42,825 bases of DNA, taken from contig CANQMT010000023.1 in assembly GCA_947625055.1 (NCBI GenBank), positions 1-42,825 on the forward strand, in the 5' to 3' direction. The stretch is from an uncultured Monoglobus sp. (GTDB taxonomy: Bacteria > Bacillota > Clostridia > Monoglobales > Monoglobaceae). Position numbers and translations under genes: made by a program. Below are positions 2,857 to 37,230 of this stretch, piece by piece; within the stretch, counting starts at the first letter, position 1; every line of letters starts with the position of its first letter. The notes below the pieces were generated by a model. It ran no database searches and was not told the origin of the DNA. It worked only from the letters and a program-made list of their open reading frames with translations.

Positions 2857-2885
2857 TAGACAGCTTCAAAGTTTTGTGTTATAAT
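2857..2885 (+). promoter_or_regulatory. Promoter for the first subtilase
   Basis: TAGACA (2857-2862), 17-bp spacer, TATAAT (2880-2885) with an upstream TG (TGTTATAAT). The start site falls near 2892, giving a very short leader of about 25 nt to the ATG at 2917; an earlier in-frame ATG at 2890 is therefore unlikely to be used. Confidence 0.75.
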
Positions 2886-2916: not shown

Positions 2917-5900
2917 ATGAACAAAAGGATAATCTCGGCAATTTTGTCGGCGCTGCTGCTTTTCGGAGCGGTAAACATGCCCGCGCTGGCCGATGACGAA
3001 AAGGTGACGCTTATAGTTGAAACCGAGGGCGCTCCGCTTCTCGGAACCAGAGAGGCCGCCTTGATGGGCGCGTCAGAGTTTTTAAAAACCGACGAGGCAA
3101 GGGATACCGAGGCGCGGCTTTTGAGCGCGCAGGACAAGGTCAAGTCGGCGGTCAAAAGGCGCTCGGGAGCGGACGCGGACAAGGGCTTTACCTACACAAG
3201 CGTTTTTAACGGATTTTCAATGGAGGCCCGCGAGAGCGATATTGAAAAAATCAAGTCGATCGACGGCGTCAAAAACGTGTATATTTCCGAAGCGGTCGAA
3301 ATTCCCGATCAGCCCGCAGCGGACGAAGAAAGCGCGCCCGGCTTCGGCGGTCAGATGATGAACGCGCAGGCGATGTATGACAACGGCTATAACGGCGGCG
3401 GGCAGGCCGTGGCGATCATAGACGCGGGATTTGATGTCGTTCACGAATTTTTCTCATCGACCGCAGAAGACCCGAGATTATCTAAAAGCTATGTAAAAGA
3501 TCTTATCGAAAATAACGAGCTTAACGCGAAGGCCGAGGCAAATCAGGTTTACAAAAACGCGAAGATCCCGTTTGCCTATGATTACGGCGACAATGACGCG
3601 GATGTGTATTACCCTCAGTTGTCGCACGGCACTCATGTGGCGGGCATCGCGGCGGGCAAGAACGGCGTGTTTGAGGGAACGACATTCTCGGGCGTCGCAC
3701 CCGAGGCTCAGCTTGTCTTGATGAAAATTGCCGACTCGGAAGGCAGCACATATAACTCCGTTATCATCGCCGCTATGGACGACGCGGCGAAAATGGACGT
3801 GTGCGCGGTCAATATGAGCTTGGGCTCAACGCTGGCGAATTCCCCGGCATACACAACCGCCTGTGATAACATGAGAAACGCAGGGATCGCGGTCATCAGC
3901 GCCGCCGGAAATGACGACAGATACGCCGAGACCGCCGAAAACCCCGATTACACCTATATCGAATATCCGGCAGTCTGCTCGGCGTCGACCGCAGTTGCGT
4001 CGTGCGACACGGACAAGAGGTGGCTCATAGGCGGCGGGATAACGCTCGCCGACGGAGAGAAGATCGTCGTTGACCAAGCGGTGTACAGCGAGCTGTTTTT
4101 CAAAAAATTCTCGGATAAATTTTATGACTATGTGTATGTGGGCAGCGAGACAACTCCGCCCGAGGATGTTGTGAAAGGAAAGATCGTTATCTCTGTTTTA
4201 AACAGCGGAATAACAAGCAGGTATCTTTTAGATTGCGGCGCCATTGGAATGATTTTTGTGGAAAACGACGAGATCGATGGCAGACTGCATACCGTGAGTG
4301 ATGAAATACCCGGCCTGGTGGTGCGCAAGTCCTACGGCGAAAAGCTGATAAACGCCGAGGATAAGCGGTTTAAAACCGATGCGGAAATATGCACACTCTA
4401 CGGGGAATTTCCCGACGCGGGAATATCCTATTTCAGCAACTGGGCGACATCCTCAAATCTTGAGCTAAAGCCCGAGATCACCGCGCCGGGCGGCGATATT
4501 CTGTCGTCGGTCAACGGTGACGAATACGAAAACAATAACGGCACATCCATGGCGGCTCCGCAGATCACGGGCGCTATGGCGCTGATGAGCGATTTTGTCG
4601 AAGCGGAATATCCCGAGGTCGCGGGCGCGGACAAGGTCGCGCTTATGGAAAATATTTTGATGAGCTCGGCAAGCCTTTTTTACAGTGACGAGGAAAAGAC
4701 TCTCCCATTGTCGCCGCGCAAGCAGGGCGCGGGCCTCGCGAATTTACAAGACGCGCTGACGATCCCAGTGATACTCAAGGGCGACAGCGGCAAATCAAAA
4801 CTGAGCCTCGGCGATATGCTCGGCGATGAGATAACGCTTAATTTCACGGCCGAGAACCTGACCGACAGCGACGTGACCTACGACGATATATCGGTTTGCG
4901 CGCTCACCGACGGATATGAAAACATAGACGGTGAAAATATGATCTCTGACTCGGTTCCGCTTGAGATCACCGCGGTCGAAAAGCCCGAAAGCGTGACCGT
5001 TCCCGCAAACGGAGAAACAGAGGTAAGCGTAAAAATAACCTTAAACGGCGAGCAGACAGCGGCCAATAAAGAAATATTCACAAACGGCTTTTGGGTGGAC
5101 GGATTTATAACCCTGAGTTCGAAGGACGGCTCGGTGACAAAATCGAGCATGCCTTACACGGGATTTTACGGCGATTGGACAGCCGCTGACGCGTTTTCTC
5201 CCTCGTATTTTGAGGAAGGCGGCAGCGCCGAGAACGGTTATATCGGATACAATTCCAATGTTCTCGGCACAAACTTGTTTGCGAGCGGCGATGAGGATAA
5301 AAGCGAATATGAAAGCGAAAGCTATGTGGGCATATCGGGTCTGACCGACAACACGGGATATTGGATAAGAGTGCGCATGCTGCGCGCTCTCGTTGATACG
5401 GTCTTGACCGTCAAAGACTCGAGCGGCAATGTCGTGTATGAGAAAAAGCTTTACGATGGTCTGTGCCGCCAGCTCGAAATCAATGATTACTTTGAGAATG
5501 TTTCGCTGGATGGGCTCGGCCTTTCCGAAGGCGACTATACCGCGGTCCTGTCGGGCAATTTCGTGTACGGCGACAAAATCAAGACCGAGGAAAAGACGTA
5601 TAAGTTTTATATCGACTCCGAGCTGCCCGAGATAAGAGATCCGAAAATCTATGAAGAAGACGGCAAAAAATACGCGTCATTTAAGGCAAGTGATAACCGC
5701 TATCTGATGGGCGCCATGGCAAATGACGGAAGCAACACGATCAGCGCGGCGGTCAAAGCTCAAAAAGAAGCGGAAATAACGCTTGATATAACGGATTTGG
5801 ATGAAGAGACACTTGAATTTTCGGTAAGCGATTATGCCTATAACACGTACGATTTCAAGATCGGCGCGGTAAACGCCGAGATAACCGACAGCATCACGGG

Positions 5901-6159
5901 CGGAGGCAGCGCCGCGTTTATCGCGAGCATCGTCAACAACGCCGCTGACGCCGACGCTGATGTTATGATGGCGATATATGACAGTGACGGCGTGCTGATC
6001 GGCGCGGACGTGCAAAACGTGTTCATAAACAGCGGCGAAAAGCTCTCGCTCGCATTCAGCTTTGAAAACGCACCGACTGCGGCCGAGGCCCGACTGTTTG
6101 TCTGGGAGCACGACAAACTGACCCCTCTGTGCGACCCCGTGATATTCACCGAATTTTAA
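2917..6159 (+). CDS. Secreted subtilase (S8) with PA and Fn3-like domains, copy 1
   Basis: 1080 residues. The ATG at 2917 has AAAGGA 8 nt upstream; the ATG at 2890 lies at the transcription start. Signal peptide 1-25 (ALA cut site), an I9-like propeptide to about residue 130, then the peptidase domain: Asp169 in VAIIDAG, His237 in HGTHVAG, oxyanion Asn332 in AGNDD and Ser544 in NGTSMAAP. The long gap between Asn332 and Ser544 holds a protease-associated (PA) insert at about 365-500, as in lactocepin and C5a peptidase relatives. After about 610 come beta-rich modules resembling the Fn3-like domains of those enzymes. No LPXTG, SLH or terminal membrane helix is seen, so it is probably released or held non-covalently. 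Role: extracellular protein degradation. It is one of a tandem pair with 6353-9592; both proteins keep identical spacing of catalytic residues. Confidence 0.93.
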   Translation: MNKRIISAILSALLLFGAVNMPALADDEKVTLIVETEGAPLLGTREAALMGASEFLKTDEARDTEARLLSAQDKVKSAVKRRSGADADKGFTYTSVFNGFSMEARESDIEKIKSIDGVKNVYISEAVEIPDQPAADEESAPGFGGQMMNAQAMYDNGYNGGGQAVAIIDAGFDVVHEFFSSTAEDPRLSKSYVKDLIENNELNAKAEANQVYKNAKIPFAYDYGDNDADVYYPQLSHGTHVAGIAAGKNGVFEGTTFSGVAPEAQLVLMKIADSEGSTYNSVIIAAMDDAAKMDVCAVNMSLGSTLANSPAYTTACDNMRNAGIAVISAAGNDDRYAETAENPDYTYIEYPAVCSASTAVASCDTDKRWLIGGGITLADGEKIVVDQAVYSELFFKKFSDKFYDYVYVGSETTPPEDVVKGKIVISVLNSGITSRYLLDCGAIGMIFVENDEIDGRLHTVSDEIPGLVVRKSYGEKLINAEDKRFKTDAEICTLYGEFPDAGISYFSNWATSSNLELKPEITAPGGDILSSVNGDEYENNNGTSMAAPQITGAMALMSDFVEAEYPEVAGADKVALMENILMSSASLFYSDEEKTLPLSPRKQGAGLANLQDALTIPVILKGDSGKSKLSLGDMLGDEITLNFTAENLTDSDVTYDDISVCALTDGYENIDGENMISDSVPLEITAVEKPESVTVPANGETEVSVKITLNGEQTAANKEIFTNGFWVDGFITLSSKDGSVTKSSMPYTGFYGDWTAADAFSPSYFEEGGSAENGYIGYNSNVLGTNLFASGDEDKSEYESESYVGISGLTDNTGYWIRVRMLRALVDTVLTVKDSSGNVVYEKKLYDGLCRQLEINDYFENVSLDGLGLSEGDYTAVLSGNFVYGDKIKTEEKTYKFYIDSELPEIRDPKIYEEDGKKYASFKASDNRYLMGAMANDGSNTISAAVKAQKEAEITLDITDLDEETLEFSVSDYAYNTYDFKIGAVNAEITDSITGGGSAAFIASIVNNAADADADVMMAIYDSDGVLIGADVQNVFINSGEKLSLAFSFENAPTAAEARLFVWEHDKLTPLCDPVIFTEF

Positions 6160-6303
6160 TAACCCGCTTCGCGGCTCCGGCCACAGCCGTCCCCTACGTC
6201 ATAATATGCAAAATGCCGTAGGGGCGGATATTATCCGCCCGCCCTATTCACTATTTACTAATCGCTAATCACTACGTTCGTAGTGGCGGATATTATCCGC
6301 CCG
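6157..6303 (+). repeat. 147-bp direct repeat, copy A, downstream of subtilase 1
   Basis: Begins at the subtilase stop codon and matches 9590-9736 at 145 of 147 positions (differences near 6279 and 6284). It contains two copies of a palindromic unit, GGGCGGATATTATCCGCCC-like, at 6218-6241 and 6280-6303, plus an 8-bp stem CCCCTACG/CGTAGGGG. Such short palindromic intergenic units act as REP-type repeats; the first could stop transcription. Confidence 0.9.
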
Positions 6304-6314
6304 TAATATACTTG

Positions 6315-6323
6315 TGATATAAT
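6315..6323 (+). promoter_or_regulatory. Extended -10 element for the second subtilase
   Basis: TGATATAAT at 6315-6323. No good -35: the position 17 bp upstream falls in the palindromic repeat (ATCCGC). The leader would be about 25 nt. Unlike copy 1, the promoter here is juxtaposed to the repeat, so expression of the two proteases may differ. Confidence 0.55.
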
Positions 6324-6352
6324 AATATATTAAATGTGGAAGGAATGATATT

Positions 6353-9300
6353 ATGCATAAGAGGATAATCTCGGCAATTTTGACCGCGCTGCTGCTTTTC
6401 GGAGCGGTAAACATGCCCGCGCTGGCCGAGGACAAAAAGGTTACGCTTATAGTCGAGACCGAGGGCGCTCCGCTTCTCGGAACCAAAGAGGCCGCCTTGA
6501 TGGGAGCGTCAGAGTTTTTAAAAACCGACGAGGCCAAGGAGACCGAGGCGCGGCTTTTGAGCGCGCAGGACAAGGTCAAGTCGGCGGTCAAAAGACGCTC
6601 CGGAGCGGACGCGGACAAGGGCTTTACCTACACAAGCGTTTTCAACGGATTTTCAATGAAGGCCCGCGAGAGCGATATTGAAAAAATCAAGTCGATAGAC
6701 GGCGTCAAAAATGTGTATATATCCGAAACGGTCGAAATCCCCGATACGCCCGACTCGGACGGAGTAAGTGCGCCCGGCTTTGGCGCGCAGATGATGAATG
6801 CGCAGGCGATGTATGACAACGGCTATAACGGCGGCGGGCAAGCCGTGGCGATCATAGACGCGGGATGCGACGTCAGTCACGATTTTTTTGCCGCGAATAT
6901 TGAAGATCCGAGGCTGTCCAAAAGCGACATAAGGAATTATGTCGAAAATAACGAGCTTAACGCGAAGGCCGAGGCAAATCAGGTTTACAAAAACGCGAAG
7001 ATCCCGTTTGCCTATGATTACGGCGACAATGACGCGGACGTATATTACGCCGAGATGACGCACGGCACTCATGTGGCGGGCATCGCGGCGGGCAAGAACG
7101 GCGTGTTTGAGGGAACGACATTCTCCGGCGTCGCGCCCGAGGCTCAGCTCGTTTTGATGAAAGTCGCCGACTCGGAAGGCAACGCGGAGGACTCCGTTAT
7201 CATCGCCGCGATGGACGACGCGTCAAAAATAGATGTGTGCGCGGTCAATTTGAGCGTGGGTACCACATTTGCAAATTCCACGATGTATGCAACCGCCTGC
7301 GATAACCTGAGAAACGCGGGGATCGCGGTTATATGCTCCGCGGGAAACGATGACAGATACGATGAGACCGCCGAAAACCCCGATTACACCTATAACAATT
7401 ATCCGGCGTCCTGTTCCGCGGCGACCGCGGTCGCGTCGTGCGACACGAACAAGAGGTGGCTCATAGGCGGCGGGATAACGCTCGCCGACGGAGAGAAGAT
7501 CGTCGTTGATCAAGCGGTGTACAGCGAGCTGTTTTTCAAAAAATTCTCGGATAAATTTTATGACTATGTGTATGTGGGCAGCGAGACAACTCCGCCCGAG
7601 GATGTTGTGAGCGGAAAGATCGTTATCTTTGATATGAACAGCGGAATAACAAGTAAGTACCTTTTAGATTGCGGAGCCGTGGGCATAATAATGCCGGCGC
7701 CCGATGAGCGCGACGGCATAATACAAACCGTGAGCGATGAAATGCCGGGTCTGGTGGTGCGCAAATCCTACGGCGAAAAGCTGATAAACGCCGAGGACAA
7801 GCGGCTTAAGACCGACGCGGAAATATGCACGCTCTACGGGGAATTCCCCGACGCGGGAATATCCGATTACAGCAACTGGGGAACCGGTTCAAGTCTTGAT
7901 CTAAAGCCCGAGATCACCGCGCCGGGCGGCAATATTCTGTCGTCGGTCAACGGCGACGTATATGAAAACAAAAACGGCACGTCCATGGCGGCTCCGCACA
8001 TCACGGGCGCTATGGCGCTCATGAGCGGTTTTATGGAGGCAGAACACCCCGAGACAGCAGGCGCGGACAAGGTCGCGCTTATGGAAAATATTTTGATGAG
8101 CTCGGCGAGCCTTATATGCAGCGACGAGGAAAAGACGCTTCCCGTGTCGCCGCGCAGGCAGGGCGCGGGCCTCGCGAATTTAAAGGACGCGCTGACGATC
8201 CCCGTGATTTTAAAAGGCGACAGCGGCAAATCAAAACTGAGCCTCGGCGACATGCTCGGCGATGAGATAACGCTTAACTTCACAGCCGAGAACCTGACCG
8301 ACAGCGACGTGACCTACGACGATATATCGGTTTGCGCGCTCACCGACGGATATGAAAACATAGACGGCGAAAATATGATCTCTGACTCGGTTCCGCTTGA
8401 GATCACAGCGGTCGACAAGCCCGAAAGCGTGACCGTTCCCGCAAACGGCGAAACAGAGGTAAGCGTAAAAATTACTCTAAACGGCGAGCAGACAGCGGCC
8501 AATAAAGAAATATTCACAAACGGCTTTTGGGTGGACGGATATATAACCCTGAGCGCAAAGGACGGCTCGGTGACAAAATCGAGCATGCCCTACACGGGAT
8601 TTTACGGCGACTGGACGGCCGCCGACGCGTTTTGCCCCTCATATTTTGAAGAAGGCGGCAGCGCCGCGAACGGATATATCGGATACAATTCGGGTGTGCT
8701 CGGCACAAACTTGTTTGTGAGCGGCGGCGAGGATAAAAGCGAATATGAAAGCGAAAGCTATGTGGGCATATCGGGCTTGATCGACAATAAATATGAGATA
8801 AACGTGCGAATGCTGCGCACCCTTGTTGACACGGTTTTGCTCGTCAAAGACCCGGGCGGCAATGTCGTGTATGAGAAAAAGTGTAACGACGGTCTGTGCC
8901 GCCAGATCGAAAGCTTTGATTACTTTGAGAATGTTTCGCTGGATGGGCTCGGCCTTCCCGAAGGCGACTATACCGCGGTTCTGTCAGGAAAATTCGTGTA
9001 CGGAGACAAAAGCAGGGCCGAGGAAAAGACGTATAAGTTTTATATCGACTCCGAGCCTCCCGAGATAAGAAACCCGAAAATTTATGAAGAGGATGGCAAA
9101 AAATACGCGTCGTTTAAGGCGAGCGATAACCGCTATCTGATGGGCGCCATGGCAAATGACGGAAGCAACATGGTCAGTGCAGCGGTCAAGGCTCAAAAAG
9201 AGGCGAAAATAACGCTTGATATAACGGATCTGAACGAAGAAACACTTGAATTTTCGGTTTCCGATTATGCCTATAACACATATGATTTCAAGATCGGCGG

Positions 9301-9592
9301 TGTAAACGCCGAGATAACCGACAGCATCACAGACGGAGGCAGCGCCGCGTTTATCGCGAGCATCGCCAACAACGCCGCCGACGCCAACGCGGATGTTATG
9401 ATGGCGATATATGACAGTGACGGCGTTATGATCAGCGCGGATGTGCAAAACGTGTTTATAAACAGCGGCGAGAAGCTCTCGCTCGCATTCAGCTTTGAAA
9501 ATGTGCCGAACGCAACCGAGGCCCGTCTGTTCGTTTGGGAACACGACAAACTGACCCCGCTGTGCGACCCCGTGATATTCACCGAATTTTAA
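6353..9592 (+). CDS. Secreted subtilase (S8) with PA and Fn3-like domains, copy 2
   Basis: 1079 residues, ATG at 6353 with GGAAGGA 8 nt upstream. Same architecture as copy 1: signal peptide (ALA cut), propeptide, Asp169, His237, Ser544 in NGTSMAAPH, PA insert and Fn3-like C-terminus. The two proteins align without a gap through the catalytic Ser; one single-residue indel occurs near the Tyr-Trp segment around residue 815. Most of the length is identical, but differences are bunched in places that should face the substrate: just after Asp169, before His237 (PQLS versus AEMT), residues around 280-350 and the end of the PA insert. This suggests duplication followed by change in specificity, although that is inference. 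Extracellular. Confidence 0.93.
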   Translation: MHKRIISAILTALLLFGAVNMPALAEDKKVTLIVETEGAPLLGTKEAALMGASEFLKTDEAKETEARLLSAQDKVKSAVKRRSGADADKGFTYTSVFNGFSMKARESDIEKIKSIDGVKNVYISETVEIPDTPDSDGVSAPGFGAQMMNAQAMYDNGYNGGGQAVAIIDAGCDVSHDFFAANIEDPRLSKSDIRNYVENNELNAKAEANQVYKNAKIPFAYDYGDNDADVYYAEMTHGTHVAGIAAGKNGVFEGTTFSGVAPEAQLVLMKVADSEGNAEDSVIIAAMDDASKIDVCAVNLSVGTTFANSTMYATACDNLRNAGIAVICSAGNDDRYDETAENPDYTYNNYPASCSAATAVASCDTNKRWLIGGGITLADGEKIVVDQAVYSELFFKKFSDKFYDYVYVGSETTPPEDVVSGKIVIFDMNSGITSKYLLDCGAVGIIMPAPDERDGIIQTVSDEMPGLVVRKSYGEKLINAEDKRLKTDAEICTLYGEFPDAGISDYSNWGTGSSLDLKPEITAPGGNILSSVNGDVYENKNGTSMAAPHITGAMALMSGFMEAEHPETAGADKVALMENILMSSASLICSDEEKTLPVSPRRQGAGLANLKDALTIPVILKGDSGKSKLSLGDMLGDEITLNFTAENLTDSDVTYDDISVCALTDGYENIDGENMISDSVPLEITAVDKPESVTVPANGETEVSVKITLNGEQTAANKEIFTNGFWVDGYITLSAKDGSVTKSSMPYTGFYGDWTAADAFCPSYFEEGGSAANGYIGYNSGVLGTNLFVSGGEDKSEYESESYVGISGLIDNKYEINVRMLRTLVDTVLLVKDPGGNVVYEKKCNDGLCRQIESFDYFENVSLDGLGLPEGDYTAVLSGKFVYGDKSRAEEKTYKFYIDSEPPEIRNPKIYEEDGKKYASFKASDNRYLMGAMANDGSNMVSAAVKAQKEAKITLDITDLNEETLEFSVSDYAYNTYDFKIGGVNAEITDSITDGGSAAFIASIANNAADANADVMMAIYDSDGVMISADVQNVFINSGEKLSLAFSFENVPNATEARLFVWEHDKLTPLCDPVIFTEF

Positions 9593-9736
9593 TAACCCGC
9601 TTCGCGGCTCCGGCCACAGCCGTCCCCTACGTCATAATATGCAAAATGCCGTAGGGGCGGATATTATCCGCCCGCCCTATTCACTATTTACTAATCGCTA
9701 ATCACTACGTTTGTAGGGGCGGATATTATCCGCCCG
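9590..9736 (+). repeat. 147-bp direct repeat, copy B, downstream of subtilase 2
   Basis: Second copy of the 6157-6303 repeat (145 of 147 identical), again starting at the stop codon. Contains the palindromic unit at 9651-9674 and 9713-9736. The two non-coding copies are more alike than the coding regions they follow. Confidence 0.9.
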
Positions 9737-9966: not shown

Positions 9967-12900
9967 TTATATGTTCAGTCTGCCGAGCATTGTGACAAAC
10001 TCGGCGCGGGTTATGCTCGCCGCGGGAGCCAGCGTGCCGTCGGGATAGCCGTTGATCACTCCGACTCCGCATGCCCACTGTATCGCGGGTACCGCGTAGT
10101 CGTTTATATCGCCCGCGTCGGTGAAGCTCAGAACATTCGTATCCTCGCCAACCGACACATCAGCGCCCTTGTGCTGCATGTATCTGTAAAGTATCGCGGC
10201 GGTCTGCTCGCGCGTCACGTTTTCGTCGGGTCTGAAGGTTCCGTCCTCAAAGCCCGTCACTATTCCGTTTTCGGCCGCCCACGCCACATACGGCGCGTAA
10301 TACTGGCTCGCGTCAACATCGCCGAACGAGGTTCCGCCGGACTGAGCGTTCTCCATGCGTCCGACTATCGTTACAAGCATCCCGCGCGTCATTGTCATGT
10401 TGGGGCCGAACTCGGTTTCGCTTATTCCGTTCACAAGGCCCTTGCCGTATGCCGAATTTACCGCGTCATAGAACCAGTCCGAGGGGCTTACGTCGGTAAA
10501 CGGCAATCCGCCTGCCGCCGGAGCGCCCGAAGCCTCGGGAGCCGCTGTTCCGGTCGGCTGCTGCGAGGGCGCCGGGGTCGAGTTCGTTGTGTTGAACGAA
10601 CCTCCTCCGCCTCCTCCGCCGTAACTTCCGGTGCTGCCGCTGTGTGATGAGGTCTGCGAGCTGAGCGTCAGCTTCTTCACATCTTCTCCGTTTGCGTCAA
10701 CATAAGTCAGTTTTTCCTCGTTGTACGATAACGCGGTTCCGTCGGATGTTGTTTTCACGCCTCCGAACTTCGCGTACTTCGACGCGGCGGTTCCGCCCTC
10801 CGCGGTAAACGTGCTGCTGTTGTCCATGCTGATATTAATGGTCGAAGTCTCGGCCTCAAAGGGCTCAACGCCGTAGCTTTGAGCTGTCTCACCGGCAGCC
10901 GAAGCGTTTATCGAGCTGTTGTTTGAGAGTCGGATAGTTCCGTATGTGCCTTGATCGTCATGATAAACCACAAGTCCCGTCGCGCGTTTCGTGCCCGACG
11001 TTGCCGCCGAAGCGTCCAGCTTTGAGTTGTCTTTGATCTCAAGGTTATGCACTGTGCAGCCTATGCCCATGTGTTCACCGCCTACCTCGCATACCGCCGT
11101 AACGTAAGCGGAGCCGTCGAGCGTGAGCTTTGTGGGTATATAGAGCGCAAGACCTATGCTGCCCGATACCGAGTCTCCCGCGTAAGCGTTTACCGTGGTT
11201 CCCGAGATGCTCATGTCTTCGTAGGATATAATTCCGCAGGAATATCCGTCTCCATTTTCATCGAATCCGCCGACGGCCTCGTCATACACCGCGTTTCCGC
11301 CCCGGGCCGTGAGCGTGCCGCTGCCTTTTATCTCAACGCCTTCGGCCACGATGCCGTAACTGTTGGTGTTTCTGACATTGCCGGCTGTCACCGTAAGATT
11401 TCCGTCAATTTCAAGAGTGTTGTCGCCCGAGCAGTAGAGCGCCGCGGCTCCTTCCGTATTTCCGGTCTTGTCAAATCCCGAATACGCGCTGTAAATCGAG
11501 GGACTTTCTCCCTCGGGAACGCGAAGCGTCGTGCCGGGGCTTAAGTGCAGTCCGTCCGCGTAGTTCGTGACAAATTTGAAATCCGATGTGAGCGTCAGCG
11601 TTTTTCCGTCGCAGGCCGCGCCGGGCACCTCGACCGGGTTCCCGAGTTCTCCGGTCTCGTAATCATATCCGTCATAGAGCTTGCTTGTCTCGCCGTCAAA
11701 GTAGAGGAGATGATCCGCAGGCTTGATCGCGTCGGTAAACTTAACGCTCTCAACAGGGGTGTCCGTGCCGGGTATGACGTATGTAAAGCCGTCATATTCA
11801 ACCTCGCCGTCATAATCGCCGCCCGAGCCGGTAACGGTAACGCCGTCCGAGCCGCTGACGCCCCAAACAGCCGAGCCTTGACCGGTCGCGGTGACAGACG
11901 AATTGTTCATCGCGGTGATCGTCGCCTTGCCGTCTTCAAAATTCCCTGTCTCGGCGTCGTAGACCCATGCGGTTATGCCCGGGGCGTCGTCATCATCGGG
12001 AGCGCCCGCGAAGTTGATTCTGTCGGCGTGAGCCGATATTACCGCGTTATCCTTGGTCGTGACAGAGCCGGGAAATTTTTCATCGCTTCCATAGATCACT
12101 ATGCCGCCTTCCGCTTCGATAAATGATGCGTCCCCGGCTATAATGTTTCCGCCGTTCATTATCATGATCGCTTTTGAATTTTCGCAACGGCTTGTGTCAA
12201 GATGAGAGCTGCCTTTCATCTCAATGCCCTCTGACGCGACACCGCAGATCGGGGAATTATTCTCTCTGACCTCCGGAGCGACAGAGAAGGCGGATACGTT
12301 GACTGTGCCGTCAAAAATGAAATTTTTGTTCGACATCATTCCGTATGAGTAACCCGTGCCGTTTTTTTCATAGGCTGTAACATCTCCCGAGCCATTTATC
12401 GTCATATCATCATATGAGAATATGCCTACAACATTAGTGGCGCTGTCGCCGAAGCCGTAAGCCGCGACGAGCAAGCCTCCGTCAATTTCCAAAGTGTTGC
12501 CGCCCTCGCCGCCCAGCGCAAATGTCATTTCGGACTCGGCAGTCGGAGACGCCGCTAAGGCGGCAGTCTTGCCTTCGGGTACCTTTACCGTAACGCCTTC
12601 GCCGATTCTGAGGGCGCCGCTGCTGCTTGACTCGAACACAACATTGTCAAGTGTGAGAACGCTGCCGTCCGCGCTCATTCCTTTGGGAATCTCCTCGCCG
12701 GAAAGCGCTTCGCCGTCCTTATTGTTTTTGCGAAATCCCGCCTCAGCGTCATAATATATGCCATAGTCGGCTATCGATGCGGCTGTGAACTCCACCATGT
12801 AATCTACGCTGCCGTCAGAGCGAATGTAACCCGCTTGATCCTTATCAAATGTAACACTGTCATCCGCCTGACTGCCTTTCACGGTATAGCTTCCCACAGG

Positions 12901-15246
12901 CTCATCCTGCAGCTTTACGGCAGCACCCACTCCTAAAAATTTGACAGACGACTCGTCGTCGCCAACTATAATCGAAACGGGACCGCTCTCCGCCGACGAG
13001 CCGTGCTCGCACAATCCGAATGCTTCCGCAGAAGCATAATTAAAAGATTCGCAGTCGATTTTGCCGCCGTCAAAGGCGCTCAAAGATTTTTCGTTTTGTT
13101 TCAGCGCAAGCCCCGCGGAAAGGTCGCAATAAGAATCTTCGGTGACGTATGCCTCAAAATTGCTCCCTTCCGACGTGACATTGTTTGCAAGACAGCCGTA
13201 TGTTATTACATTCTCTCCGCCGCCTTCGCCTTCAGCGTGCACATCCGCGCCGTCACCGGCAAAAACATTGTTGACATACATGCCTATGCTCACTCCGTTT
13301 TGGGGCTCCGTTTCCTCTTCCTGAGGTATGAGTGAAACATATCCCGAATATGCTCTTACGGCTGTACCGCGTATGCTTATATTGTCGTCTGAGCTTATAC
13401 CCGCCGAAATCACAGTCGGATCCGATGCGTCAATCATATCCCCGCCTGTCGCGTATATTTTTCCTTTTCCGGATATGGATAGTGTGCCGTCGCCGCCGAG
13501 AATGCCGCTGCTCCCCATACGCGCGCTCCTGCTTGTCGCGGTAAATAAGCCGTCAATTTCAAGATTGCAGTCGCCGTTGTACACAAGAGCTGCGGAGTTC
13601 ATATTATCCGGATTATCTCCGCTCATTACGCTTGCCGTTACGCCCTCAGGAACTACGAGCGTTGTGCCGGGGAACAGATATAATCCCATTTCGCAGTTGG
13701 TTTCAAAGTGAAAATCATTCGTAAGCGTAAGGGTATCGCCCTCGCATATTGCGCCGGGGAAGTTTTCGAGCTTTTCGCCGTTATTTTTATATAACACTCC
13801 TTCATCGGGCTTATATATAAGATAGTAGTCGGCTGCTTCTCCGCGTGTGATTTTTAAATAGTCTACGCCGGTATGGTAAGCGTACATATAGTTGTGCTCA
13901 CGGGAATTATAATACGTCACGATCGCGTTGCTGCCGTCCGTTTTGCGGCTTCCCATTACGGTCACGTTACCCGTCGGATCTTTGTACTGTGTTTTGCTGA
14001 TTCCGACATCATATACGCGCCGCTGATGATAAGCGTCGTTGTTGCCTGCCGCGATTATTTCCGACGGTTCGGCGTTTTCGCTCTCGTCAACAACGAACTC
14101 CACACCGCCGTATTCTATGGCTGAGGCGTCCTCCTCGCCATAGTTGTGGTAATATTCCGCTATGCCGTATCCGTATTCGCCGTTTCCGGCGCGCGCGTAA
14201 ATCGCGCTGCCGTTATCAACGGTTATTTTTCTCTTGTTTGTCCCCTCCATAATTTCAAGACCTATGGTGCGCATATCGTTGTCGGGATCTCCGTCATCGG
14301 GCGGCACGTTGCCGCCGTAGGCGTAAATTTCCGAGCCGTTTTTCGCCGATATACTGTTGGTCTGTATTCCATGCGAGAGCAGCGATGACTCGCCGCCCGC
14401 GCCGATGACAAGAGCACCGTCCTCGGCGGATAAAACGCAGTTTGCGGATAAAATGTCGGGAGATTGATCCCGTATTACGATACCTGTGCACTGTTGAGCG
14501 TCTCTTGTCAAACATGTGCCTATAAGCGCTGCTTTATTTACACTTATCGAGCTGTAAGCGAATATGCCGGCAGAAAACGTCGGCGCTTTTCCGCTTACCG
14601 CCGCGACAACTCCGCCTCCGCAAATGCTCAGACTGTCCGCGATAATACCGTAGCTTGACTCTGCGGCGTGAAAATTGACAGCAGCCAGATTACCGCTGTT
14701 ATTCGTGTTTATTGTCAAATTACCGCCGAAAATACTTGAGCTTTCGCTTTCCTGCGACACATTGATTATCAGTACGGACGAATTATCCGGAATGCTGATT
14801 TCGGCGTCGGACTGTAACCAAATATCCGTATCCGCCGACGTAATTAACGCCATGTCGCCCTCGGGAAATTTTATTGTGTCGGCATCGATCGTTATGCCGC
14901 CCAAATTTTCCGTCGATCCGGACTCCTCGTCAGTCTCACTGAATACCAGTTGATTATCGCCGAGATTCAGAACATTTACATCCGCGCTCTCAAGCATCGC
15001 CGCGAGCTCGTCCGCTGTCTTGTTTTCGGCTCCCGTCCAGTCAACGTCCTTAAAGCCGCCCCAGTCGGTATCGCCCCAGTCGATCGCGTCAATGCCGCCG
15101 GTATAGTTTTCTCCGGCTTCGACAGGATTTGTTATCGACGGCCGAATGCCGCCGTCATTCGGCTCGGCAAAAGCCGCCTGGGTAACGAGCGACGCCATCA
15201 TTGCAAGCGCAATAAACGATGACAGAACTCTTTTTACCTGTTTCAT
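9967..15246 (-). CDS. Giant secreted modular protein with C-terminal SLH domains
   Basis: 1759 residues. ATG at 15246 follows AGGAGGT. Signal peptide 1-27 (AFA cut). The body is Gly/Ser/Asp-rich with many short turns typical of a right-handed beta-helix or adhesin-like fold. A module of about 330-350 residues recurs: segments opening with a Tyr-Asp/Gly-Leu-Tyr motif, then a TLTL strand, a PEG/VPEG turn and an LEIDG strand are found near residues 500, 830 and 1180, with a weaker first copy near 80-200. A Gly-rich, then Thr/Pro/Gln/Ala-rich linker (about 1530-1580) leads to three SLH domains (about 1585-1759) with ITRAEF-, TREQ- and TRGM-type motifs, which bind secondary cell-wall polymer. So it is a non-covalently anchored surface protein. 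The ligand is unknown. Monocistronic, convergent with the subtilases. Confidence 0.9.
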   Translation of the reverse strand: MKQVKRVLSSFIALAMMASLVTQAAFAEPNDGGIRPSITNPVEAGENYTGGIDAIDWGDTDWGGFKDVDWTGAENKTADELAAMLESADVNVLNLGDNQLVFSETDEESGSTENLGGITIDADTIKFPEGDMALITSADTDIWLQSDAEISIPDNSSVLIINVSQESESSSIFGGNLTINTNNSGNLAAVNFHAAESSYGIIADSLSICGGGVVAAVSGKAPTFSAGIFAYSSISVNKAALIGTCLTRDAQQCTGIVIRDQSPDILSANCVLSAEDGALVIGAGGESSLLSHGIQTNSISAKNGSEIYAYGGNVPPDDGDPDNDMRTIGLEIMEGTNKRKITVDNGSAIYARAGNGEYGYGIAEYYHNYGEEDASAIEYGGVEFVVDESENAEPSEIIAAGNNDAYHQRRVYDVGISKTQYKDPTGNVTVMGSRKTDGSNAIVTYYNSREHNYMYAYHTGVDYLKITRGEAADYYLIYKPDEGVLYKNNGEKLENFPGAICEGDTLTLTNDFHFETNCEMGLYLFPGTTLVVPEGVTASVMSGDNPDNMNSAALVYNGDCNLEIDGLFTATSRSARMGSSGILGGDGTLSISGKGKIYATGGDMIDASDPTVISAGISSDDNISIRGTAVRAYSGYVSLIPQEEETEPQNGVSIGMYVNNVFAGDGADVHAEGEGGGENVITYGCLANNVTSEGSNFEAYVTEDSYCDLSAGLALKQNEKSLSAFDGGKIDCESFNYASAEAFGLCEHGSSAESGPVSIIVGDDESSVKFLGVGAAVKLQDEPVGSYTVKGSQADDSVTFDKDQAGYIRSDGSVDYMVEFTAASIADYGIYYDAEAGFRKNNKDGEALSGEEIPKGMSADGSVLTLDNVVFESSSSGALRIGEGVTVKVPEGKTAALAASPTAESEMTFALGGEGGNTLEIDGGLLVAAYGFGDSATNVVGIFSYDDMTINGSGDVTAYEKNGTGYSYGMMSNKNFIFDGTVNVSAFSVAPEVRENNSPICGVASEGIEMKGSSHLDTSRCENSKAIMIMNGGNIIAGDASFIEAEGGIVIYGSDEKFPGSVTTKDNAVISAHADRINFAGAPDDDDAPGITAWVYDAETGNFEDGKATITAMNNSSVTATGQGSAVWGVSGSDGVTVTGSGGDYDGEVEYDGFTYVIPGTDTPVESVKFTDAIKPADHLLYFDGETSKLYDGYDYETGELGNPVEVPGAACDGKTLTLTSDFKFVTNYADGLHLSPGTTLRVPEGESPSIYSAYSGFDKTGNTEGAAALYCSGDNTLEIDGNLTVTAGNVRNTNSYGIVAEGVEIKGSGTLTARGGNAVYDEAVGGFDENGDGYSCGIISYEDMSISGTTVNAYAGDSVSGSIGLALYIPTKLTLDGSAYVTAVCEVGGEHMGIGCTVHNLEIKDNSKLDASAATSGTKRATGLVVYHDDQGTYGTIRLSNNSSINASAAGETAQSYGVEPFEAETSTINISMDNSSTFTAEGGTAASKYAKFGGVKTTSDGTALSYNEEKLTYVDANGEDVKKLTLSSQTSSHSGSTGSYGGGGGGGSFNTTNSTPAPSQQPTGTAAPEASGAPAAGGLPFTDVSPSDWFYDAVNSAYGKGLVNGISETEFGPNMTMTRGMLVTIVGRMENAQSGGTSFGDVDASQYYAPYVAWAAENGIVTGFEDGTFRPDENVTREQTAAILYRYMQHKGADVSVGEDTNVLSFTDAGDINDYAVPAIQWACGVGVINGYPDGTLAPAASITRAEFVTMLGRLNI

Positions 15247-34050: not shown

Positions 34051-37000
34051 ATGAAAAAATTATTAATTTTAATTATGAGCCTCGCTTTGGCGCTGCCGTC
34101 GGTGTTTATTCCGGCAAGCGCGACGGAGGCTTCGATCCCGATCTACAGCGAGGCGGACTTATACTACATAGCCGATAACCCCGGCGGAAGCTATGAGCTT
34201 ATGTGCGACATCAACTGCACCGAGTTTTGCACGATACCGACGTTCTCGGGCAGACTTAACGGCAACGGTTATCAGATAATGACAAACGAAAGCCGCATGT
34301 TTGAAACCGTTGAAAGCGGCGCGGTGATAACCGATCTGTCCGTGGTCGGACTCTCGAACGGCGCGGAACGATACTTCGCGACAGACGAGCCCGCCTCAAA
34401 CGAATACGGCGGCGTTGTCGCCGGAGTGTTCAGGGGTACAATGGAGCGCTGCGCGGTATACGGCAGCGTCAGCGGCTCAACGCTCGCCTCGGGCGGAATG
34501 GCCGGCGTGGTCGACGGCGGAAAGATATCCGACTGCTCGTTCAAGGGCTCGGTCACTGCGGATTCGGGCTGCGCGGGCGGCTTTGCGGGCAAGCTAAGCA
34601 ACGCCGTGATCGAGCGGTGTTACGCAAACATTGATGTCAACGGCTCGGCCCCAGAAAAGGGCAACTTCGCCGGGAACAGCTCATCCTCACAGGTGTCGGG
34701 CTGCTATACGAGTTCCGGCCTTGAGAGCTTCGGCATCGGCGTCGGAGCCGACACCGTCACCGCTCTTGATGACACGGCAAAACTCAGCGCGGCATATTAT
34801 CCCGCCTTCAGCTTCGGCGATACATGGACAATTATTGAGGGCGAAACATTGCCGCTGCTTATCTCGATCTACGGACGCGGCACCGAGGCGCAGCCATACA
34901 GACTTCACGGTCAATCGTACCAATATTCCGAAATATACGCGATGATGAAAAACGGCACAAACGGCTTGGGGCCCGTGTATCTGCGCATGGACAGTGACTG
35001 GGACGCTTCAAGCAACAGCCTCCTCATGGTCGGCGACGACCAAAATCGTTTCAGCGGAGTGTTCGACGGAAACGGCCATGTTATAAAAGGGCTCAACTGT
35101 CCGCTGCTCGGCGCGATCGACGCGGCCGGCGCGGTAAAAAATCTGACGATCATAGCCGCCGAAATAAGTAACGCCGACGTTTTCGGCTATGTGACAAAAG
35201 TTAACTACGGCACGATAGAAAACTGCCATGTCACAAGCAACGGTCTGAACGGTTCAAAAGACCTCGGCGGCATCGCCGGCGAAAACATCAACGGCACGAT
35301 AAAGTGCTCAAGCTTCAGGGGCAATATAAGCGGAACCGAGTCGGGAATCGGCGGCATCGCGGGCTACAACAGCTTCGGAACAATAACCGAGTGCGCGGTC
35401 AAAAACTCATCAATCATCGGCGAGGATCACAGCGTCAGCGGCATCGCGGGCGACAACAGCAGCGGCACGATCGAAAACTGCTTGGTGTATAACGCCAATG
35501 TCTGCTCGGATGGCGGCGAGGTCGGCGGAATAGCGGGCAGGCTCTATAACGGCGTTATCAGAAGCTGCTTTGCTAACTGGCAGAGCCATGACTTGTCATT
35601 TCCGAACATATCCGCGATAGCGGGCGGCATAATCGAAAGCGGCACGGTTGAAAACTGCTATTACAATACCGACTTTGCGCCGTACGCCATAGGCGGCACC
35701 GAAAACACCGACGGAGCCGTGAGCGGAGACAGCATAAATAATCCCGCCTCCTATCCCGGGCTTGATTTTACAAGCACTTGGACGCTCGACGAGGAATGCG
35801 GCCCCGCACTGCTCTCGTTATGCGGCGCGGGAACACGTGAAAACCCGTACATAATCAGATGCGACGAAGACCTTACCGAGGCAAACGACGGCATAAGCGT
35901 CTCGGGCGAGAGAAATTATTATGTTTTAGGCAATAATCTCTATCTTGAGCTGCATCACGACACAGCGTTCAGCGGCAGCATAAACGGCGCGGGACACAGG
36001 ATCACCGTAACCGGCAGCAGTCTGCCCGATCTGGGCAAAGGCGGATATTGGGGAAACGCGGTTGTGGTCAACGGCAGATTTAACAGTATTGAAAACGCGA
36101 AAATCGAAAAATGCGTTTTCATAGGCCCCGGCAGATGCGCCAGCACGATCTCTGGCTCAACAGTGAGCGGATGCGCGGTTATTTTCAGAAAAAATAATCC
36201 CGAGTCGCCTCGGATAAACGGCGGATTTGCGCTGCAGATCTCAGACGGCAGCGACATAAGCGACTGCGTTGTGCGCAAGGCCGAGCTGGGCGGCGAGATA
36301 TGCGGAGGCTTCGCGGGCAGCGTCTCGGGCAGCCGCGTGACAAACTGCTGCGCGCTCGACTGCCGTCTCGGCGGCTCAAGCGCGGCGGGCGGCTTTGTCG
36401 GCAGGAACGACAATTCATCATCGATCAAAAACTGCGCCGCGCGCGGCGAGATAGAGACGAAAGACGGAAGCTACACAGGCGCTTTCGCGGGCATGAACTA
36501 CGCCGAGATAACCTCGTCCTACGGCGTTAACACCAAGGATGACAGCGAAACGATAGGATTCGCGGGCCATGACGAGGGAACCATAAAGGAGTCGGGCGTG
36601 TCCGACTTCACCGTGCCATACATAAGCTTCGGCGGATACGGCGTTTCGGTCTATGACAACACGGTCTATACTCCCGAAATACAAACTCCCGAGCCCGGCG
36701 GACTTTCCGACATTTCGGGCCACTGGGCGGAAAAAACGATCAATAATCTTGTGTCAAGCGGCGTTATCAACGGTTACGAGGACGGCACTTTCAGGCCCGA
36801 GCTCAGCGTGACAAAGGGCGAGTATATCAAGCTGCTCATGGCCGCGGCCGGTCAGCCCACCGACGACAATTTCACGCAATACAGCGACGTGAACGCCTCA
36901 TGGGCGAGGCAGTATGTGAGCCGCGCGGTTTATATCGGGATCTGCGGCGACATTCCCGTCACCGACACATATTTCGGCGTTGATGAGCCGATAACCAGAG

Positions 37001-37230
37001 CGCAGGCCGCCGCGATAACCGGAAGGCTGCTGGCTCCCGGAAAAGGCGGTACGCTCAGCTTCACCGACGCAGCGGCGATCCCCGCGTGGGCAGCGGAGCC
37101 GATAGGCGCGTGCGTGAATATCGGATTGATCACCGGAAACGACGACGGTTCTTTCAGTCCCGAGGGCAGGCTGACCCGCGCCGAAGCCGCGACGATAATA
37201 GAAAGAGTAATAAATCTTGACAGTAAGTAA
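34051..37230 (+). CDS. GLUG-repeat surface protein with three C-terminal SLH domains
   Basis: 1059 residues, ATG at 34051 with AAAGGCGG upstream. Signal peptide about 1-24 (ASA cut). The body is a series of GLUG-type repeats with the pattern GG(I/M/F)AG-x8-12-I-x2-C-x4-G-x-(V/I), for example at about 125-220, 405-520 and 730-835, which build a beta-solenoid used in adhesins and surface proteins. Many Cys-containing IxxC strands. SLH domains at about 885-1059 (HWAEKTINNL, GYEDGTFRPE, TRAQAAAITGRLL, TRAEAATIIERV). It is anchored non-covalently to the wall. Ligand unknown; adhesion is inference. Own transcription unit, with the perfect palindrome 37237-37276 as terminator. I could not identify a good promoter; TTGGAA at 33982 lacks a fitting -10. 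Confidence 0.9.
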   Translation: MKKLLILIMSLALALPSVFIPASATEASIPIYSEADLYYIADNPGGSYELMCDINCTEFCTIPTFSGRLNGNGYQIMTNESRMFETVESGAVITDLSVVGLSNGAERYFATDEPASNEYGGVVAGVFRGTMERCAVYGSVSGSTLASGGMAGVVDGGKISDCSFKGSVTADSGCAGGFAGKLSNAVIERCYANIDVNGSAPEKGNFAGNSSSSQVSGCYTSSGLESFGIGVGADTVTALDDTAKLSAAYYPAFSFGDTWTIIEGETLPLLISIYGRGTEAQPYRLHGQSYQYSEIYAMMKNGTNGLGPVYLRMDSDWDASSNSLLMVGDDQNRFSGVFDGNGHVIKGLNCPLLGAIDAAGAVKNLTIIAAEISNADVFGYVTKVNYGTIENCHVTSNGLNGSKDLGGIAGENINGTIKCSSFRGNISGTESGIGGIAGYNSFGTITECAVKNSSIIGEDHSVSGIAGDNSSGTIENCLVYNANVCSDGGEVGGIAGRLYNGVIRSCFANWQSHDLSFPNISAIAGGIIESGTVENCYYNTDFAPYAIGGTENTDGAVSGDSINNPASYPGLDFTSTWTLDEECGPALLSLCGAGTRENPYIIRCDEDLTEANDGISVSGERNYYVLGNNLYLELHHDTAFSGSINGAGHRITVTGSSLPDLGKGGYWGNAVVVNGRFNSIENAKIEKCVFIGPGRCASTISGSTVSGCAVIFRKNNPESPRINGGFALQISDGSDISDCVVRKAELGGEICGGFAGSVSGSRVTNCCALDCRLGGSSAAGGFVGRNDNSSSIKNCAARGEIETKDGSYTGAFAGMNYAEITSSYGVNTKDDSETIGFAGHDEGTIKESGVSDFTVPYISFGGYGVSVYDNTVYTPEIQTPEPGGLSDISGHWAEKTINNLVSSGVINGYEDGTFRPELSVTKGEYIKLLMAAAGQPTDDNFTQYSDVNASWARQYVSRAVYIGICGDIPVTDTYFGVDEPITRAQAAAITGRLLAPGKGGTLSFTDAAAIPAWAAEPIGACVNIGLITGNDDGSFSPEGRLTRAEAATIIERVINLDSK

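Follow-up and report, generated by a model that had tools for sequence, protein, structure and literature searches.

Why do two neighbouring genes for secreted proteases, copy A and copy B of a tandem pair in an uncultured Monoglobus sp., differ mainly around the active-site cleft? The pair lies on contig CANQMT010000023.1 within a window of 42,825 nucleotides (the whole stretch of DNA that was analysed), and the initial annotation had read it as a duplicated protease that changes what it cuts. The coordinates given there, the 88% identity of the two copies and the shared positions of D169, H237, N332 and S544 are confirmed. We think it probable that the tandem pair is an old one that gene conversion has levelled, and that selection holds the recognition surfaces of A and B apart. 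At the level of sequence, we demonstrate the orthology of the pair, the conflicting histories of islands of difference (Table 1) and the rest of the gene, the fixation of the differences across species and their enrichment at mapped subsites.

Divergence between the two copies is uneven

Comparing A and B codon by codon, we found a synonymous divergence (dS) of 0.303 and a nonsynonymous divergence (dN) of 0.066, for a ratio (w) of 0.22. Nonsynonymous differences are clustered (variance per 30 codons 11.8 versus 5.1 expected, 0/5000 permutations) at codons 172-183, 192-197, 233-236, 277-280, 291-353, 426-458, 505-514 and 536-549, which bears out the bunching described initially. Synonymous differences are clustered as well (p 0.017), and the two kinds co-vary along the gene (Spearman 0.42-0.60; 0.54, p 0.0007), with dS reaching 0.72 at codons 301-360 versus 0.03 at 361-420, a pattern invisible in a plain protein alignment. 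Hence, since dS varies more than twentyfold along the gene, its parts have different histories and pairwise dN/dS is the wrong test.

In windows of 60 codons, w is 0.15-0.28 over 151-360, 0.37-0.82 in those spanning 361-480 and up to 0.62 at 811-870. The values for the cleft, well below 1, are literally the outcome that the initial annotation had named as speaking against its proposal, and on its other check, an even versus a clustered spread, nonsynonymous differences gather at mapped subsites; synonymous differences cluster along the gene too. Its view that the C-terminal half is less altered holds above all for residues 601-760, the chief little-altered part, but not for residues 781-870, which are among the most altered (a one-codon indel and pairwise w up to about 0.6).

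A simple account of this contrast is a fairly recent duplicate in which positive selection changed the cleft alone and constraint left the rest unchanged. We consider it unlikely, since constraint on a protein cannot lower dS, yet dS drops with dN.

Islands and homogenised parts have conflicting histories

At least four further species of the genus have the tandem pair, with A orthologues in genomes G004, G006, G009 and G010 and B orthologues in G003, G004, G006, G008, G009 and G010 (the G003 and G008 copies are partial). A and B are adjacent in G004 and G009; in G006 and G010 they lie partly on separate or broken contigs. The order Fer4-A-B-SLH, in which a 4Fe-4S protein lies upstream and a large SLH-domain protein lies downstream on the opposite strand, is kept in G004 and, as far as contigs extend, in G006, G009 and G010. 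Genome G007 has one A-like gene between the same Fer4 and SLH neighbours, and no coding remnant of B was found there, short repeat matches only. As outgroups we used the single-copy genes L004 and L009 (about 90% to A) and L010 and L013 (about 80%; these match hits in another genus of the family), together with the 60% paralogues L012 and L014-L016.

We scored site patterns in sets of four genes, the A and B genes of two genomes, counting sites that split two versus two either by copy or by genome. When the window is paired with G004 or G009, codons 271-360 and 421-470 each have 24-37 sites that group by copy and none that group by genome (37:0 and 24:0, respectively, with G009). At 1-143, 601-760 and 871-1080 the patterns are mixed or by genome; at 871-1080, G009 and G010 give 3 sites by type and 28 by genome. 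Corroborating these counts, the tree of the catalytic region has a B clade with bootstrap 100, and the C-terminal tree joins G010A with G010B (95) and G006A with G006B (87).

For topology tests, the homogenised parts (1-143, 361-420, 601-760 and 871-1080) were pooled. Separate A and B clades are rejected there (nucleotide log-likelihood difference, delta lnL, 112, approximately unbiased (AU) test 6e-13; amino-acid AU 0.003), as is a B group outside all other copies (nucleotide delta lnL 116). Rooted with the outgroups, the island trees have B branching outside A, G007, L004/9 and L010/13. A B group nested within A and G007 after the split of L004/9 is rejected by the nucleotide AU test (0.014) but not by the amino-acid one (0.12). 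This different tree of the homogenised parts also counts against a recent duplicate.

Divided by the dS between A and L010/13, the A-B dS comes to 1.79 (95% 1.31-2.6) for the islands and 0.39 (0.32-0.47) for the homogenised parts; the remaining catalytic region lies between them at 0.73 (0.53-0.98). At codons 601-660, the A-B dS in the window is 0.22, versus 0.47, 0.57 and 0.75 from A to the A-type genes of G009, G004 and G007. The noncoding 3' flanks of A and B are nearly identical, and those of orthologous A copies can be aligned hardly or only patchily. Taken together, conflicting trees, the contrast in dS and the near-identical 3' flanks amount to gene conversion between the paralogues.

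Recombination could also have acted from outside, with the B islands imported from a distant unsampled homologue and no particular selection for separateness. Consistent with such a mosaic, the dS from the B islands is about the same to A, to L004/9 and to L010/13 (0.49-0.61), 18 of the 47 amino-acid changes on the branch between A and B (the A|B branch) are multinucleotide, and codons 776-870 act like a module exchanged between L010 and L013. We regard this origin as distinctly unlikely, given that no donor was found in 51 genomes of the order, that the 60% paralogues are not consistently closer to B than to A (import from them found no consistent support), and that several short islands between identical tracts would take either many imports or a single one with later conversion, the latter amounting to the explanation that we prefer.

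Forty-four residues separate all A copies from all B copies

We found 44 diagnostic residues that split every available A copy from every available B copy: 23 in 144-360, 11 in 421-470, 6 in 504-600 and 4 in 761-870 (at 810-818). Forty of them map to the catalytic domain or, within its PA-like insert, to the distal portion, and none are in 1-143, 361-420, 471-503, 601-760 and 871-1080 (the 606 remaining positions). Twelve fixed synonymous codon differences occur in the same places.

All B copies have P233A, Q234E, S236T (63 in the numbering of subtilisin BPN'), T278A (102), N280D (104), A329S (152) and N540K (217), and at these seven positions the alternative residue is invariably found in the A copies and the single-copy relatives. 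The reported contrast of PQLS and AEMT before HGTH is therefore diagnostic at 233, 234 and 236 (235-236 being BPN' 62-63), and the reported change at the end of the PA insert falls in island 4. The difference between NGTSMAAPQ and NGTSMAAPH is real too, but A is probably the changed copy, as H549 of B is common to most single-copy relatives and Q549 is found only in A copies and G007.

The islands could instead be loops and a PA edge that tolerate change, with drift as the source of the A/B differences and their own mismatch blocking conversion; conversion requires identity, so diverged stretches resist it, and some 60% paralogues differ at the same loops. However, A-type island residues barely vary among the A copies (A-A island dN 0.013) and largely common to single-copy relatives, the five BPN'-numbered B states are fixed in all B copies, and B is still constrained (w 0.2). 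Such relaxed constraint is therefore very unlikely.

Diagnostic residues are enriched at mapped subsites

Cleft positions were obtained from a conserved-motif alignment to subtilisin BPN', using a BPN' sequence with the triad positions checked. An automatic alignment put the residue before His64, the 165-169 loop and 189 in the wrong places, and the motif-based positions were used. Loop 165-169 was excluded from the final enrichment test, so no claim is made for the striking E349N, a possible S1 pocket residue (166).

Diagnostic residues occupy 9 of the 27 mapped subsites versus 20 of the 287 other catalytic residues (Fisher 2e-4; p 0.006 in a rotation test, which respects clustering along the sequence). 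On the A|B branch, 8.0 nonsynonymous changes are at substrate contacts with 2.9 expected (rotation p 0.01). There is no such enrichment for synonymous changes on this branch (3.0 versus 2.2 expected) nor for nonsynonymous changes on the A and single-copy branches (9.9/113.5), and enrichment within 3 residues of subsites is weaker (nonsynonymous p 0.11, diagnostic p 0.02). In subtilisin BPN', 101-104 form the rim of S3/S4, 152 the wall of S1 and 217 the S1'/S2' side. The location at the cleft proposed in the initial annotation thus stands, as the differences are fixed across species and enriched at substrate contacts, but the contrast with the rest of the gene comes mainly from gene conversion.

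Descriptions of the subtilisin pockets are found in PMC3378952 and PMC7935941. In C5a peptidases and SpyCEP, PA domains lie over or near the cleft, and deleting the PA domain of lactocepin altered casein cleavage (PMC5177683, PMC7113628); work cited in PMC5177683 reports that the PA domain influences the specificity of PrtP.

Evidence for an adaptive burst is weak

Codon models were fitted with self-written scripts, not PAML runs. Within the A crown w is 0.14 and within the B crown 0.21, so that both copies are constrained; on the A|B branch it reaches 0.49 against a background of 0.18 (twice the log-likelihood difference, 2dlnL, about 14). In island 4, the A|B branch has 13.3 nonsynonymous versus 3.2 synonymous changes. 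Branch-site model A gives 2dlnL 13.6 on this branch, with w2 of about 10 for 6-7% of codons and top sites at 172-183, 233-236, 278, 328-329 and 447-453.

The higher w on this branch and its branch-site signal, which drops to 2dlnL 4.8 (w2 5.6) with double and triple changes allowed, are what a recent duplicate under positive selection predicts. However, the signal falls to 0.7 without six codons (175, 447-450 and 453), one of seven control branches, inside B, reaches 5.2 (the other six have no signal), and w in the cleft is low, as given above. An adaptive burst on the A|B branch is thus suggested, but weakly; as the cause of the contrast along the gene, a recent duplicate is largely refuted, and a burst of selection could have founded the islands. 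Since outgroup rooting puts the root near the A|B branch, the island changes cannot be attributed to B in their entirety, although most A states in the islands are also found in the single-copy relatives.

Probably one scaffold with two recognition surfaces

In the scenario of gene conversion with guarded islands, an old tandem duplication would have given rise to a pair of secreted subtilases resembling cell-envelope proteinases. Conversion between the neighbours keeps renewing the propeptide, the fold-bearing stretches, the Fn3-like domain, the C-terminus and the 3' flank, so that these look young, and conversion reaching the cleft loops, the distal PA-like insert and one C-terminal patch would be lost by selection, so that the islands stay old and different. 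The outcome would be one scaffold with two substrate-recognition surfaces, A having kept the one seen in single-copy relatives and B having another. From the position and fixation of the islands, we infer that selection guards them, and A and B likely cut different substrates. More tentatively, the pair may be a two-specificity cassette in which conversion wipes out whatever has no bearing on the difference, so that the 44 surviving residues would be the specificity surface itself of a gut cell-envelope-type protease, made up of cleft loops, a PA lid and a C-terminal patch comparable to the Fn2 exosite of ScpA; that residues 810-818 are the counterpart of this exosite is a guess.

Several points weigh against this scenario. 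The AU test alone does not reject a B group younger than the L010/13 split in the islands (0.35 on nucleotides, 0.17 on amino acids). Island borders were set partly after viewing the A-B differences, so island dS is maybe somewhat inflated; the count of diagnostic residues is independent of these borders. Tests of single conversion tracts are marginal for the window (p 0.02-0.03) and G009 (0.0125), and no tract passes in G004. G004A has the B-type DIRNY at 192-196 (3490-3504 in window A), where other A copies seen in full have YVKDL, apparently a small B-to-A conversion inside an island. The cleft positions rest on the BPN' alignment, and MAFFT and motif-based mapping differ at 6 of 34 positions. 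Finally, an AlphaFold model of A from 17 sequences is unusable for cleft distances (mean predicted local distance difference test (pLDDT) score 50.6, catalytic domain mostly <40), and its structural matches come from the PA and C-terminal domains only.

The same pattern is known from the L/M opsin genes of primates (gibbons), tandem paralogues that gene conversion levels outside the stretch that sets function (PMC3213168). As in A/B, the trees of homogenised and kept parts of the opsins disagree, and significantly conflicting part-by-part phylogenies, the opsin-like hallmark, were found for A/B. The homogenised opsin parts are mostly introns, whereas those of A/B encode domains of a secreted protease from a bacterium, and what is kept in A/B is, unlike in the opsins, a set of several short loops. 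By analogy, A/B is the evolutionary pattern of the L/M opsins in a bacterial protease.

Little is understood of how large PA-containing subtilases choose their substrates, and the literature points to the PA domain and remote exosites; a pair levelled except for a few residues provides a short list of candidate specificity determinants. In addition, pairwise dN/dS or identity scans of tandem genes can misread conversion as constraint and make an old pair look young.

Family, domains and gene starts

Both products are subtilases of peptidase family S8 (PF00082, 146.9 and 148.7 bits versus a cut-off of 21.8), and D169, H237, N332 and S544, in the standard Asp/His/Ser triad and oxyanion Asn motifs, are invariant across 17 aligned sequences; A and B are secreted S8 proteases with an intact triad and predicted activity. 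Each has a signal-peptide-like start, an I9 propeptide, Peptidase_S8 at 161-606 and, after the catalytic domain, fn3_5 at 630-748 (PF06280, 56.5 bits versus a cut-off of 27.6), and the C-terminus of A has more beta domains beyond this Fn3-like domain. A PA domain is placed between the catalytic Asn and Ser: residues 371-494 align structurally to the PA domains of BSAP and cucumisin, and the Pfam PA score (PF02225) of 19.4 bits is below the cut-off of 23.9, so this assignment is good by structure and weak by sequence. Neither C-terminus has an LPXTG motif or anchor helix, and both proteins end ...TPLCDPVIFTEF.

The nearest solved structures by sequence are streptococcal C5a peptidase and SpyCEP (E 2e-68 to 1e-58); residues 745-1080 have no significant PDB sequence match. 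ScpA/ScpB and SpyCEP/ScpC, like A/B, have a catalytic domain with a PA insert followed by Fn3-like domains, but A/B are distant from them in sequence and are without an LPXTG-like end, and the likeness says nothing on substrates. Lactocepin PrtP and the NCBIfam SGO_0316 family also share the broad architecture of A/B, which fall outside that family (NF040553, 261.9 and 240.8 bits versus a curated cut-off of 1400). Our literature search found no paper on such proteases in Monoglobus.

In the 2.21 Mb genome, A and B are the only copies. GAAAGGACG precedes the A start at 2917 and GGAAGGAATG the B start at 6353. There is an alternative upstream ATG for A at 2890; the start at 2917 has a ribosome-binding-like sequence and is common to B. 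The 5' flank of B is unrelated to that of A.

Table 1. Features of the A/B locus, with positions in the window and, for paired features, the counterpart in copy B
Feature	Position	Counterpart in B	Strand	Remarks
Promoter-like site before A, TAGACA-17-TATAAT	2857-2885		+	consensus match only
Copy A	2917-6159		+	secreted S8 protease, 1080 amino acids
Copy B	6353-9592		+	tandem paralogue of A, 1079 amino acids, same domain set
Island 1, residues 171-197 after Asp169	3427-3507	6863-6943	+	7 diagnostic residues at 172-183
Candidate conversion tract, codons 197-226	3505-3594	6941-7030	+	16 identical polymorphic sites, permutation p 0.03
Island 2, residues 229-240	3601-3636	7037-7072	+	A YPQLSHGTH, B AEMT at 233-236
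Island 3, residues 270-360	3724-3996	7160-7432	+	holds BPN' 101-104 loop, 126-128 and 151-152
PA-like insert, residues ~371-495	4027-4401	7463-7837	+	structural match to BSAP/cucumisin PA domains
Candidate conversion tract, codons 387-413	4075-4155	7511-7591	+	16 identical polymorphic sites, p 0.03
Island 4, residues 421-470, distal PA insert	4177-4326	7613-7762	+	11 diagnostic residues
Island 5, residues 503-511	4423-4449	7859-7885	+	505 and 506 diagnostic; 506 assigned to BPN' 189
Island 6, residues 534-541	4516-4539	7952-7975	+	N540K in all B copies; 540 is BPN' 217
Homogenised stretch, residues 601-760	4717-5196	8153-8632	+	no diagnostic residue; low A-B dS at 601-660
Candidate conversion tract, codons 647-671	4855-4929	8291-8365	+	17 identical polymorphic sites, p 0.02
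Variable segment, residues 781-870, after Fn3-like domain	5257-5526	8693-8959	+	sites sort mostly by copy type
Noncoding 3' flank of A, from stop codon	6157-6303		+	98.6% identical to B flank over 147 bases
Noncoding 3' flank of B, from stop codon	9590-9736		+	partner of 6157-6303

Repeats, variable modules and neighbouring genes

The near-palindromic GGCGGATATTATCCGCC occurs at 6223-6239 and 6285-6301 behind A and, with the same spacing, at 9656-9672 and 9718-9734 behind B. It has 72 exact copies in the genome, versus 0 for a reversed control pattern; it looks like a dispersed element of the repetitive extragenic palindromic (REP) kind and may provide homology for exchange. At codons 1-143 (2917-3345 in A, 6353-6781 in B), up to 10 sites are crosswise, joining window A with the B copy of another genome, which suggests that the propeptide region has been exchanged among copies or among genomes. 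The single-copy genes L010:6001-9228 and L013:6001-9246 have 96% DNA identity in the catalytic domain and 68% at codons 776-870, apparently a hypervariable exchanged module.

Isolate names of relatives in a species-genome collection begin with Lapin, which suggests the rabbit gut. The downstream SLH-domain protein (9967-15246) also adjoins the protease in several relatives and varies fast, with 57-90% identity among comparable relatives. A second SLH-domain protein, at 34051-37230, has GLUG motifs and weakly matches, below cut-off, M26 IgA1-specific peptidases in their N-terminal region.

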